From Arcobacter sp. (lineage in GTDB: Bacteria > Campylobacterota > Campylobacteria > Campylobacterales > Sulfurimonadaceae), in contig NVXJ01000001.1 in the NCBI GenBank assembly GCA_002733885.1, positions 171,303 through 206,794 on the forward strand: DNA of 35,492 bases, given 5' to 3'. Shown one piece after another: positions 10,747 to 28,611 of the stretch. The position numbers and the translations under genes were made by a program. A model generated the notes under the pieces. It made no database searches. It saw only the letters and a program-made list of their open reading frames with translations, and was not told the DNA's origin. The first letter of the stretch is position 1. Every line of letters begins with the position of its first letter.

Positions 10747-12795
10747 ATGGAAGCAATTTTTACAGACTTAAATGAAGCGCAAGCGGAAGCTGTTAGAAAG
10801 ATAGATGGACCTATGCTAATTTTAGCAGGCGCGGGTAGTGGTAAGACTAAAACCATTATCTCTCGATTGGCTTATCTTATAGATGAAATCGGTATACCAC
10901 CTGCAAACACACTCACCCTTACCTTTACCAACAAGGCCGCCAAAGAGATGCGTGAACGTGCTCTTAATATGATTCAGCCCACTTCTTATCCTCCTCTTCT
11001 TTGTACCTTTCATAAGTTCGGACTTTTATTTCTAAAATTTCATATTTCAAGACTAGGGCGTAAAAATAATTTTGTTGTGATTGACACCAAGGACAAAACA
11101 GCCTTAATTAAAAAGTTTAACTCTGAAGTTCCTGTTCCACTTATTGCCAGTGAAATTTCACGCTATAAAAACTCTCTTCTAACGCCTGATGAAGCTTACG
11201 CCCAAGCAGAATTAAAAAACTATAAGGCGATTGCTAAAGTTTATGAGCAATATGAGGCTCATTTAGTAAAAAACAATCTCGTAGACTTTGATGACTTACT
11301 GGCCCTTACATATAAGCTTTTAAATGAGAATGAAGACCTTGCCAAAGAAACAAGTGAAAAATATCAGTACATAATGATTGATGAGTACCAAGATACAAAT
11401 GAACTTCAATTTAGATTGCTTCAAAAACTTTGCCATACTCATGACAATTTATGTGTTGTTGGGGATGATGACCAAAGTATTTATGGATGGCGTGGCGCAA
11501 ACATCCGAAATATCATTGACTTTGATAAAGATTTTAAAAACACCCATGTGGTCAAACTTGAAAAGAACTATCGTTCTACTGAACCCATTTTAGATGCGGC
11601 TAATGCCCTTATTGAGCATAATAGAAATCGTTTAGGAAAAAAGCTTATTGCAACAAGAGGAACAGGAAAAGAAATAACCACTATCTCTTCGCATGATGAA
11701 GGAGAAGAAGCAAATAAGGTAGCAAATGCTATTTCAAAACTTCTGAACTCTGGGGTTAGAGCAGATGACATTGCTGTACTTTACCGCATCAATGCCCTCT
11801 CCCGTTCACTTGAAGAAGGACTTGCGCGTCATAGAGTTCCTTATAAGCTTGTCGGAGGCTTACGCTTTTATGATAGAGCTGAGATTAAAGACCTTATCTC
11901 GTATCTAAGAGTTGTTACTAATGTACATGATAGTTTCTCTCTTAAACGCATTATTAATAAGCCAAAACGTGGTTTAGGTAAGGCAACAATAGACAAGCTA
12001 GAACTTGCTGCTATGGATTCAGCTAAGTCCATCTTTGAATATATTGACACTTCGAGTAATGAAGAACTTGAAGCCCTAATTAAGAAGAAAAACACACTCA
12101 CCGTCAAAAAACTTGTAAAAGTTATTAAGGCAGTTGCTAAAACAGCGCAAGATGGAACCTATGACTTCATAGATGTTCTAGAAGATAGTTTTAATATTAA
12201 ATCCATATATGAGAATGTGCAAGATGCAAGTGAGAGAATTGCAAATATTGATGAATTTTACGGTCTCTTTCGTGACTTTATCAAACAAAATCCAAGCACC
12301 AGTTTAGATGAATTTTTAAATGAACTAACCCTTCAAAGTGATCAAGACCAGGTTGAGGGTGAAAGCATTTATATCATGAGTATTCACGCGGCTAAGGGTT
12401 TAGAATTTAAACATGTTTTTATTATCGGTTTAGAAGAAGGTTTTTTACCTCTTATAGGCGATGGCTCAGACACAGAAGAAGAAAGACGTTTGGCTTATGT
12501 AGCCATCACAAGAGCCGAAGAAGAACTTACAATGTCTCATGTTGCAAGTAGATTTTATAAGGGAAGAAGGACGGAACTAACTAAGAGTCGATTCTTTAAA
12601 GAAACAGGCTTATGCGAAGGGTCCTTTATCTTAGAAAAAAACACCAGCTTTAAAAAAGGCGATCTTATACGTCATAAAATCTTTGGTGCAGGAAGAATTC
12701 TTGGTGTATCTAAGGCAGGAAAAGACTTCAAACTAAAAATCAACTTTGGGGGGAGTCACAGAGATATACTATCCTCCTTCGTTGAGAGGCTATAA
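10747..12795 (+). CDS. pcrA: UvrD/PcrA-family ATP-dependent DNA helicase
   Basis: LILAGAGSGKTKTIISRLAYLI, DEYQDTNELQ, VGDDDQSIYGWRGA, IMSIHAAKGLEFKHVFIIGLEEGFLP. Confidence 0.96.
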   Translation: MEAIFTDLNEAQAEAVRKIDGPMLILAGAGSGKTKTIISRLAYLIDEIGIPPANTLTLTFTNKAAKEMRERALNMIQPTSYPPLLCTFHKFGLLFLKFHISRLGRKNNFVVIDTKDKTALIKKFNSEVPVPLIASEISRYKNSLLTPDEAYAQAELKNYKAIAKVYEQYEAHLVKNNLVDFDDLLALTYKLLNENEDLAKETSEKYQYIMIDEYQDTNELQFRLLQKLCHTHDNLCVVGDDDQSIYGWRGANIRNIIDFDKDFKNTHVVKLEKNYRSTEPILDAANALIEHNRNRLGKKLIATRGTGKEITTISSHDEGEEANKVANAISKLLNSGVRADDIAVLYRINALSRSLEEGLARHRVPYKLVGGLRFYDRAEIKDLISYLRVVTNVHDSFSLKRIINKPKRGLGKATIDKLELAAMDSAKSIFEYIDTSSNEELEALIKKKNTLTVKKLVKVIKAVAKTAQDGTYDFIDVLEDSFNIKSIYENVQDASERIANIDEFYGLFRDFIKQNPSTSLDEFLNELTLQSDQDQVEGESIYIMSIHAAKGLEFKHVFIIGLEEGFLPLIGDGSDTEEERRLAYVAITRAEEELTMSHVASRFYKGRRTELTKSRFFKETGLCEGSFILEKNTSFKKGDLIRHKIFGAGRILGVSKAGKDFKLKINFGGSHRDILSSFVERL

Positions 12796-12796
12796 A

Positions 12797-12904
12797 ATGA
12801 CACTTGAAATAAATTCGCAAGAAACTTCTGCTTTGCAGATCGCCACGGCTAGTTTTGGCGGAAACCATAGAGATATCCTTTCTTCATTTGTTGAGAGATT
12901 ATAA
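12797..12904 (+). CDS. Putative 35-aa ORF ending in a second copy of the PcrA C-terminal tail
   Basis: ATG 1 nt after pcrA TAA; reads MTLEINSQETSALQIATASFGGNHRDILSSFVERL*, versus PcrA end ...NFGGSHRDILSSFVERL*. Confidence 0.45.
   Translation: MTLEINSQETSALQIATASFGGNHRDILSSFVERL
12822..12856 (+). repeat. Three-way-junction mini-repeat, copy A
   Basis: AAACT-TCTGC-TTT-GCAGA-TC-GCC-AC-GGC-T-AGTTT-T. Confidence 0.8.
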
Positions 12905-12984
12905 TGCCTGACTCTTTCCCTTACCTATTTTCCTTTAGCGAAGCGTTCTCTTCCCCTCTTTTAAAAGGAAGTGCGGCTTCTCCT

Positions 12985-13018
12985 AAAACATCGCTTTGCG
13001 ACCGCCAAGGCTTGTTTT
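12985..13018 (+). repeat. Three-way-junction mini-repeat, copy B
   Basis: AAAACA-TCGC-TTT-GCGA-CC-GCC-AA-GGC-T-TGTTTT. Confidence 0.82.
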
Positions 13019-13021
13019 ATG

Positions 13022-13057
13022 GAAACATCTGCTTTGCAGACCGCCAAGGCTTGTTTT
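13022..13057 (+). repeat. Three-way-junction mini-repeat, copy C, abutting the truB start
   Basis: GAAACA-TCTGC-TTT-GCAGA-CC-GCC-AA-GGC-T-TGTTTT. Confidence 0.82.
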
Positions 13058-13877
13058 GAATAGACTATTTGTAGCCTACAAGCCAACAGGACTTAGTTCT
13101 AATCAGTTTCTAAGTCGTTTAAAACGTAAATATAATGTTAAAAAAGCAGGTTATTCAGGTACCTTAGACCCCTTTGCCAAAGGCTGTTTGATTGTTGCCT
13201 TTGGAAGCTTTACACGCTTCTTTCAATTTCTTGATAAAACACCAAAGGTTTATAGAGCTACCTTATGGCTTGGAGCGGCCTCAGATACCTTGGACATTGA
13301 ACAAGTCACTGACCCATCCATAATTAAGCCCTTCAAAGAAGAAGAAGTTCGTAAAATCATAGAAGGACTTAAGGGTGAACTAGAGTATGACCCTCCTATC
13401 TTTTCTGCAAAAAGAATTAATGGTGTGCGTGCCTATGACTTAGCAAGAGCAGGTAAAGAAGTCGTTTTAAATAAGATCAATTCTACTATTTACGATATTT
13501 CTCTTATACATTACTGTCATCCCTTTGTCACCTTTGAAGCCACCGTTAGTGAAGGTACTTATATCCGTTCTTTAGGACGTCTTATTGCAAATCAATTAGG
13601 TGTTGATGGTTCACTAAGTGCTTTAGAGAGATTAAGAGAAGGAAGCTTTAGCTATAATAATGAAGATTCTATCTCTCCCCTTGATGCACTTCCTATGGAG
13701 CGTATAAAGTTCAGGGGAAATATTGAAGACGTGTGGCTTGGTAAGAAAATTGCTTTAGAAAGTTTAAGTGTTCAAAAAGAAGGTATATATCTTCTTCATG
13801 ATGATAAACTTGCCGCGGTTTTACAGATTAAAGATCAAAGCGTATCATATTTACTAAATAAGGTTCCATTATGTTAA
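13056..13877 (+). CDS. truB: tRNA pseudouridine(55) synthase TruB
   Basis: NRLFVAYKPTGLSSNQFLSRLKRKYNVKKAGYSGTLDPFAKGCL, EGTYIRSLGR; likely TTG start at 13056 because the track ORF's N-terminal extension is translated repeat. Confidence 0.93.
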   Translation: MNRLFVAYKPTGLSSNQFLSRLKRKYNVKKAGYSGTLDPFAKGCLIVAFGSFTRFFQFLDKTPKVYRATLWLGAASDTLDIEQVTDPSIIKPFKEEEVRKIIEGLKGELEYDPPIFSAKRINGVRAYDLARAGKEVVLNKINSTIYDISLIHYCHPFVTFEATVSEGTYIRSLGRLIANQLGVDGSLSALERLREGSFSYNNEDSISPLDALPMERIKFRGNIEDVWLGKKIALESLSVQKEGIYLLHDDKLAAVLQIKDQSVSYLLNKVPLC

Positions 13878-14143
13878 TTCTTTCACGTAAACTTGAAGAA
13901 GCCATTTGGCTTGGTGACAACATTAAAATCAAGATTATGGGCATAGAAAAAGGTGCTGTGAAACTTGGTATTGAAGCACCCTCTGATGTTACTATCTTAA
14001 GGCAAGAGCTAAAAGACGCCGTTGCCGATGTAAACAAGAAGTCTTCAAGTACAAGTGAACAACTTGGTGACTTGCAAGACTTTATGAAAACAAGCCATGG
14101 CGGTCACAAAGTGATGTTTCAGGCGAAGTCGCACAAAAAATAA
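13871..14143 (+). CDS. csrA: Carbon storage regulator CsrA
   Basis: MLILSRKLEEAIWLGDNIKIKIMGIEKGAVKLGIEAPSDVTILRQEL; extended C-terminal tail. Confidence 0.93.
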   Translation: MLILSRKLEEAIWLGDNIKIKIMGIEKGAVKLGIEAPSDVTILRQELKDAVADVNKKSSSTSEQLGDLQDFMKTSHGGHKVMFQAKSHKK

Positions 14144-28324: not shown

Positions 28325-28355
28325 AGATAACCTATCCTAAACCTATTTACTAAAG

Positions 28356-28389
28356 AAACATCGCTGTGCGACCACCATCGGTTTGTTTT
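28356..28389 (+). repeat. Three-way-junction mini-repeat, copy D
   Basis: AAACA-TCGC-TGT-GCGA-CC-ACC-ATC-GGT-T-TGTTTT, between mnmG and the downstream REC-kinase gene. Confidence 0.72.
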
Positions 28390-28611
28390 CAAAGGTTGAG
28401 AAAATTTAATTTTATGGCGCAATTATACCCTTAATAGACAGGTTTAAAAAGCTATTTAAAATTCAATTCATAATTTAAGAAAATATTTAATATAAGGACA
28501 TCACTTAGCTTCTATTTATTCTGATACTTTATAACTAACTTAAACACTATGCCTCATCTTTTATATTGCAAGGTGTACAATAGTTTGATATAGCTCTTAG
28601 GTAGGTTTATA

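Follow-up and report, generated by a model that had tools for sequence, protein, structure and literature searches.

A 42-nt repeat with a three-way-junction fold in Campylobacterota: a probable non-autonomous mobile DNA element with in-frame copies in genes

Introduction

The window analysed here (a whole stretch of 35,492 nt of Arcobacter sp. DNA) contains several short sequences built of complementary arms, and from copy to copy these arms change in matched pairs. What such a repeat is, and what carries it from site to site, is the question raised by this locus. The first-pass annotation, made from the letters of the window, had described four copies, drawn them as a three-way junction and read the matched changes as selection for a fold in RNA or single-stranded DNA. 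The analysis presented below leads us to regard the repeat, whose unit is about 42 nt long, as a selfish miniature DNA element of Campylobacterota, mobile but non-autonomous, which is probably mobilised by an enzyme as a folded single strand (we put the probability of this reading at about 0.62).

Results

Copies in the window

On re-reading, the sequences and coordinates given for the four copies (12822-13057 and 28356-28389) were all correct; a fifth copy, on the minus strand, had been missed. The features of the window are as follows.

12797..12904, plus strand: 36-codon frame MTLEINSQ-ETSALQIATASF-GGNHRDILSSFVERL-stop, a duplicated uvrD tail with copy A (from translation)
12819..12858, plus strand: element copy A (first-pass pattern 12822-12855); R2 62.6 bits, E = 5.6e-13
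12971..12982, plus strand: prefix module GTGCGGCTTCTC, left of copy B (from flank comparison)
12983..13018, plus strand: element copy B, hairpin 1 of 4 bp (first-pass 12986-13018); R2 45.2 bits, E = 1e-8
13020..13059, plus strand: element copy C, in tandem with B (first-pass 13023-13057); R2 59.8 bits, E = 2.7e-12
14085..14122, minus strand: element copy E; R2 49.1 bits, E = 1.1e-9
14123..14134, minus strand: prefix module GTGCGACTTCGC, left of copy E (from flank comparison)
28353..28391, plus strand: element copy D, in the gap separating mnmG (minus strand) from a histidine kinase gene (first-pass 28356-28389); R2 43.7 bits, E = 2.4e-8

The scores refer to a covariance model, R2, of 40 positions and 13 pairs, built from 18 copies of the genome containing the window (G000; contig C40, 3.15 Mb). 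Those 18 sequences match the model by construction, and since the five window copies are among them, their E-values of 5.6e-13 to 2.4e-8 are to be read in the same way, which does not apply to the additional copies of the genome; after these five, the best window score is E = 0.04. With up to 3 mismatches allowed, the window contains two matches to the pattern TTTGCRGACCGCCAAGGC, where 0.01 would be expected.

Copy A reads AAACT-TCTGC/GCAGA-GCC/GGC-AGTTT. In copies B and C the outer arm is AAACA/TGTTT, with hairpin 1 being TCGC/GCGA in B and TCTGC/GCAGA in C, while copy D combines a hairpin 1 of TCGC/GCGA with a hairpin 2 of ACC/GGT that has a 3-nt loop. Copies E and B form a 48-nt inverted pair, 88% complementary.

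The prefix is a small hairpin module (genome consensus GCGGCTTCGCCTG) that is joined directly to the left side of about 12 copies (e.g. L080, L083, L091, L092), and the composition of the joined prefix and element is modular and BOX-like. A second family of small hairpins, starting with CTAAAGTCCG or TCCGCTTCGC, also adjoins element copies (L035 1541-1580 and the flanks of L065, L099 and L074).

As for the genes of the window, the intact uvrD tail, INFGGSHRDILSSFVERL, stops at 12795, just before a diverged second tail, and within this remnant of a second uvrD 3' end copy A reads in frame as ETSALQIATASF; the second tail resembles a relic left when the gene end was replaced or duplicated. Three other genomes of the genus (G005, G004 and G003) lack the stretch between uvrD and truB. 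The right end of copy C runs into the start of truB (TTG AAT AGA), where the truB genes of relatives start with GTG or ATG, and copy E is fused into the 3' end of csrA, the resulting tail being MKTSHGGHKVMFQAKSHKK. The tail of csrA and the start codon of truB both derive from, or abut, element copies.

Copy number and distribution

The covariance-model search proposed in the first-pass annotation was run, and the element proved not to be confined to the four sites. In G000, R2 gives at least 90 matches at E<=1 and at least 85 at E<0.01 among the loci retrieved, both figures being lower bounds, with 150 of the 1234 first-look candidates scored. The description as a dispersed miniature repeat of REP/MITE-like size is thus borne out by about 85 genome copies. 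All six genomes of the genus (G000 and the other five, G001-G005) carry the element, with 8-50 copies each under stricter filters. In other Campylobacterota it occurs in few genomes, in one to three copies each, and a sample of 399 genomes of the order contains, apart from G000, 11 that carry one or two copies (E<=1e-5). Such low-copy occurrence across the order implies an old element, spread widely in small numbers, whose expansion took place in one genus.

When named genomes were scanned for the exact pattern, the only hits were metagenome-assembled genomes of Campylobacterota (labelled Sulfurimonas, Campylobacterales, Arcobacter/Arcobacteraceae or Epsilonproteobacteria), with no Rickettsia contigs among the matches. 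The plasmid collection searched gave no match to the element, and a limited literature search found no description of this repeat. Viral contigs gave six loci, on five contigs; two of these loci, L293 and L295, resemble GC-rich chance matches. One putative viral contig, IMGVR_UViG_3300032212_000577 (L294/L297), carries two element copies and might be a vehicle between species.

A further structured sequence occurs in G000, namely a noncoding block of 717 nt (L158:9734-10450, contig C4) that folds as a giant nested hairpin (-131 kcal/mol as single-stranded DNA, z -12.9) and holds two element copies. Roughly ten diverged copies of it occur in this genome, and G002 and G001 lack it at the orthologous site; it may be a larger structured mobile element.

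Unit architecture and fold

The unit of about 42 nt can be written as NCTA-RAG-AAACW-[hairpin 1, 4-7 bp, 3-nt loop]-CC-[hairpin 2, 3 bp, 2-nt loop]-T-WGTTTT, with the length of hairpin 1 varying in matched pairs from 3-4 up to 7 bp. In an alignment of 84 distinct copies, fitted to the R2 model, which itself favours the structure, 95.6% of cells are paired against 84.9 +/- 0.6 after shuffling (0 of 500 shuffles as high), and changes on both sides affect 106 cells and 11 of the 13 pairs, compared with 29.7 cells and 5.7 pairs in shuffled alignments. When the structure is slid by one base on one side, pairing is at most 59.9%. Matched changes are also visible by eye: TCGC/GCGA is replaced by TTTTTTCC/GGGAAAAA in hairpin 1, hairpin 2 occurs as ACC/GGT, GAC/GTC and ACT/AGT, and the outer arm as AAATA/TATTT, AAGCA/TGCTT and AAAAA/TTTTT. 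At the orthologous csrA-ispE site, the GCC-AT-GGC hairpin 2 of G000 corresponds to ACC-AT-GGT in G002. The three-way junction with matched arms, drawn initially from four copies, is therefore supported by about 85 copies and by this matched change between two genomes, with strong genome-wide covariation. Taken singly, copies have folding energies only modestly below those of shuffled sequences (z about -0.9 to -1.9 as single-stranded DNA), so that it is covariation rather than energy that carries the case for the fold.

Hairpin 2 had been called the weakest part of the fold. It is real, since each of its three pairs shows two-sided changes, though 10% of its cells are indeed unpaired; a 3-bp stem with a 2-nt loop fits 126 of 152 distinct copies. 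The alternative register CCG-CCA-CGG, chosen by the folding program for the commonest sequence, was rejected, as ACC/GGT, GAC/GTC and GGC-TT-ACC fit only the register with the 2-nt loop. While the paired letters vary, the unpaired T after hairpin 2 is present in 152 of 152 copies and the G before AAAC in 147 of 152, a constancy partly conditioned by the selection of copies with the model.

Presence and absence at orthologous sites

Comparison of orthologous sites shows units that are present in some genomes and lacking in others. In ribD of G000 there are exactly 14 extra codons (42 nt), TKETSASQTATACF, lacking in G005 and G001, and the junctions (marked by slashes) read GACTTT/ACTAAAGAAAC...GTTTT/GATAAAGAG in G000 versus AGCTTC/GATAAAGAG in G005. 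The insert in cobB is present in G000 and G001, with none in G002 or G005. Three tandem in-frame units occupy the sufE-sufT site of G000, where sufE and sufT make up a single frame, and at least one unit is found there in G005, with none in G002 and G001. The uvrD-truB gap contains copies in G000 and G002 and none in G005, G001, G003 and G004, while at csrA-ispE orthologous copies occur in G002 and G001 (degenerate in the latter) and none in G005, G004 and G003. Such a mixed pattern implies that units have been gained, lost or exchanged repeatedly. Between ribD and cobB the copies are identical in 44 of 44 bases, which points to recent movement.

Intergenic copies occur in either orientation, and at some sites units of 41-42 nt form tandem arrays. 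The flank profile has T-runs at both element ends, which suggests insertion at or beside T-runs; in the case of ribD (TTT/...GTTTT/GAT, with 5-bp arms) the end T-runs leave a target-site duplication ambiguous.

In-frame copies in genes

The in-frame insertions in genes, which go beyond the first-pass annotation, were found within RibD, CobB, the SufE-SufT fusion, Mfd, PepN and dUTPase. In G000 the respective ORFs match the Pfam families RibD_C, SIR2, SufE plus FeS_assembly_P, and 4HBT; in relatives they match UvrB_inter plus CarD_TRCF_RID (TRCF/Mfd-like), Peptidase_M1, dUTPase_2, DnaX-like, GspD_N0/Secretin_N, Pribosyltran and DUF58. The insert adds a KETSASQTATACF-type peptide (P0001-P0004 and relatives), and the peptides inserted in RibD, CobB and SufE-SufT are of the ETSASQTATACF type. 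Unit length is divisible by 3 in all 20 listed genic copies and in 20 of 55 intergenic ones (Fisher 1.8e-7), an association partly built in by the choice of the genic list by Pfam support and reading frame, and none of the units on that list shifts the frame. The consensus has several open frames (KETSASQTATACF on the sense strand), which may be why genes tolerate units that are a multiple of three.

Discussion

The reading that we favour could work in the following way. One DNA strand, when single, would fold into the three-way junction, and an enzyme acting in trans would recognise this folded strand during mobility and act on DNA. Insertion would then take place at T-runs or next to them; intergenic copies would lie in either direction, some of them as tandem arrays, and insertions into genes would be tolerated provided that the unit is a multiple of three. 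More tentatively, and with clearly lower confidence than in the mobile nature of the element, we suppose that it may represent an undescribed class of mobile DNA of Campylobacterota, in which a folded single-strand three-way junction is moved in trans into T-runs, including in-frame sites in essential genes. The mover in such a class could possibly be the integron integrase of the genus or another single-strand recombinase. Among the PF01797, TIGR02249 and RVT_1 proteins of the six genus genomes none was linked to the element as its mobilising enzyme; reverse transcriptase (RVT_1) was rejected as the mover, being present in only two of the six.

Action of the fold in transcripts, as a processing site, a part of a terminator or a regulatory hairpin, seems quite improbable to us, even though RNA of the top strand can adopt this three-way junction too and some copies sit between inverted arms resembling terminator stems (e.g. 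L057, L081, L094, L067). Such terminator-like arms make up 6 clusters at a score of at least 10, with 1.65 expected and a maximum of 6 in 200 swaps, which is only suggestive of insertion into terminator hairpin loops. A functional RNA family is expected to show many more G-U pairs, whereas the 1943 pairs of 152 distinct copies comprise 1837 Watson-Crick, 29 G-T (1.5%), 38 A-C and 39 other combinations. A loop of 2 nt, as hairpin 2 mostly has, is allowed in DNA and strained in RNA, where an ordinary hairpin would need the inner pair to open. Minus-strand RNA lacks the junction, Rfam gave no match to the element, many copies lie within coding sequence in both directions, and no preference of orientation relative to the flanking genes is seen (15 copies the same way, 14 opposite, 19 between convergent genes, 10 between divergent genes and 14 inside ORFs). 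Taken together, the few G-T wobbles, the 2-nt loop of hairpin 2 and the lack of orientation bias favour a fold in DNA over one in RNA, and a role at the DNA level is accordingly favoured. As to the choice of the folding strand from G-T versus A-C mismatches, it was abandoned, since the A-C excess in G000 (24-25 vs 11) is gone over all copies (38 vs 29, p = 0.33). Of the selection for an RNA or single-stranded DNA fold claimed initially, the DNA part is thus favoured over the RNA part, and selection is not the sole reading, because template-switch correction of quasi-palindromes also produces matched changes of the arms. The same process underlies an explanation without any enzyme, unlikely in our view and yet less so than a role in RNA, by which hairpins arise, are copied and are corrected as DNA is replicated, through template switching and slipped mispriming at T-runs, and the covariation is then mutational, with neither selection for a fold nor a transposase. 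It accords with the nearly exclusive Watson-Crick character of the matched changes, with few G-T or A-C intermediates, with the tandem arrays at 41-42 nt, with the 717-nt nested hairpin block and its two copies (L158, z -12.9) and with the lack of a linked enzyme. It accounts poorly for the junction T, the G before AAAC and the CC linker staying constant while paired letters vary, for nearly the same unit at unlinked sites (ribD and cobB), for the precise gain of 42 nt in ribD and for the architecture being kept in other families at low copy number.

Two known single-strand systems were weighed as possible movers, and both appear highly improbable. The element is short, palindromic, mostly intergenic and multicopy, as would suit REP sequences mobilised by a REP-associated tyrosine transposase (RAYT, PF01797), and PF01797 proteins of 226-260 aa are encoded in G000 (two), G004 and G005. 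The link to such a transposase, raised in the first-pass annotation, fails all the same: these Y1 proteins are found in only three of the six genus genomes and are lacking in G002, G003 and G001, the last a complete genome with 30 element copies, there are 0 copies within 1.5 kb of PF01797 genes, and the RAYT-like Y1 gene of L153 is flanked by a different repeat, AAATAAAGGGGACAGGGTACTTT (L153 1340-1440 and 2130-2200). Integron attC sites are folded single-strand substrates with AAC...GTT ends, and attC sites or repeats derived from them, moved by an integron integrase, would agree with TIGR02249 scoring above the cut-off in four of the six genomes of this uncultured genus and in 0 of 14 controls (in G000 at C51:162715-163656 and C11:56355-57296; also in G004, G005 and G001). 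The flanks of the element are nevertheless AAGAAAC...GTTTTCT and not the RYYYAAC...GTTRRRY of attC core sites, the 8-18 kb around the integrases examined, where a cassette array would lie next to intI, contain neither copies nor convincing attC arrays, no gene cassettes separate the tandem copies, and G002 and G003 have copies and no integrase above the cut-off.

Thus, an enzyme-mobilised miniature DNA element remains our preferred reading, and its closest parallel in behaviour is found in the palindromic elements of Rickettsia (RPE), a likeness that the first-pass annotation had likewise not noted. RPEs are 105-146 bp long and occur both between genes and in frame within genes (PMC2229807; PMC10969869). 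They were described by Ogata et al. (2000), and the passages on them in these two reviews also cite protein-coding palindromes of Wolbachia (PMC2229807; PMC10969869). Our element shares with them multicopy palindromic DNA lying in intergenic regions and in frame in conserved genes, with element-free orthologues (ribD, cobB, sufE-sufT), a conserved peptide and no known transposase. In contrast to the single long stem-loop of RPEs with its terminal inverted repeats of about 12 bp, it has about 42 nt (about a third), a 5-bp closing stem with two short hairpins, frequent tandem arrangement, hosts among Campylobacterota and a sequence not known to be related to theirs. It therefore behaves like an RPE and is not filed as one, because size and fold differ.

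Mobile GC clusters and double-hairpin elements of fungal mitochondria are units of about 40 nt with two hairpins, which occur in AT-rich DNA, nested and in tandem and occasionally in coding sequence. By description they are alike, differing in their location in organelle DNA, while the closing outer stem and the fixed junction letters are found only in our element. With integron attC sites the element shares the nature of imperfect palindromes, which in attC are recognised as folded single strands, and the presence of the integrase in the genus. REP/BIME sequences are similar in size, palindromic character, high copy number, intergenic location and guide-like letters beside the hairpin foot; they differ from the two hairpins on a closed stem seen here, and their transposase is unlinked to our element and absent from half of the genomes. 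REPs rarely overlap coding sequence (PMC12306157), whereas our element has copies in core genes. Bacterial MITEs (Correia/NEMIS, ERIC, RUP, BOX) are also non-autonomous, structured and repeated, and some are fused in frame to genes (PMC2229807), but our element is three to five times smaller and its terminal inverted repeats are only 5 bp long. PARCELs are dyad-symmetric repeats coding for a peptide, in which a 25-residue repeat motif builds whole domains (PMC2996958), unlike the 14-residue units inserted here into unrelated genes.

The repeat also alters gene annotation, as seen in the csrA tail, the truB start and the sufE-sufT fusion at element sites. The best-known palindromic elements inserted in frame are those of Rickettsia and Wolbachia, and they represent an unsolved case of selfish DNA altering proteins. 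A much smaller, apparently unrelated example, with about 85 copies, clear empty orthologous sites and strong covariation, would make the mover of such elements testable, its hosts being free-living and possibly cultivable relatives of Sulfurimonas.
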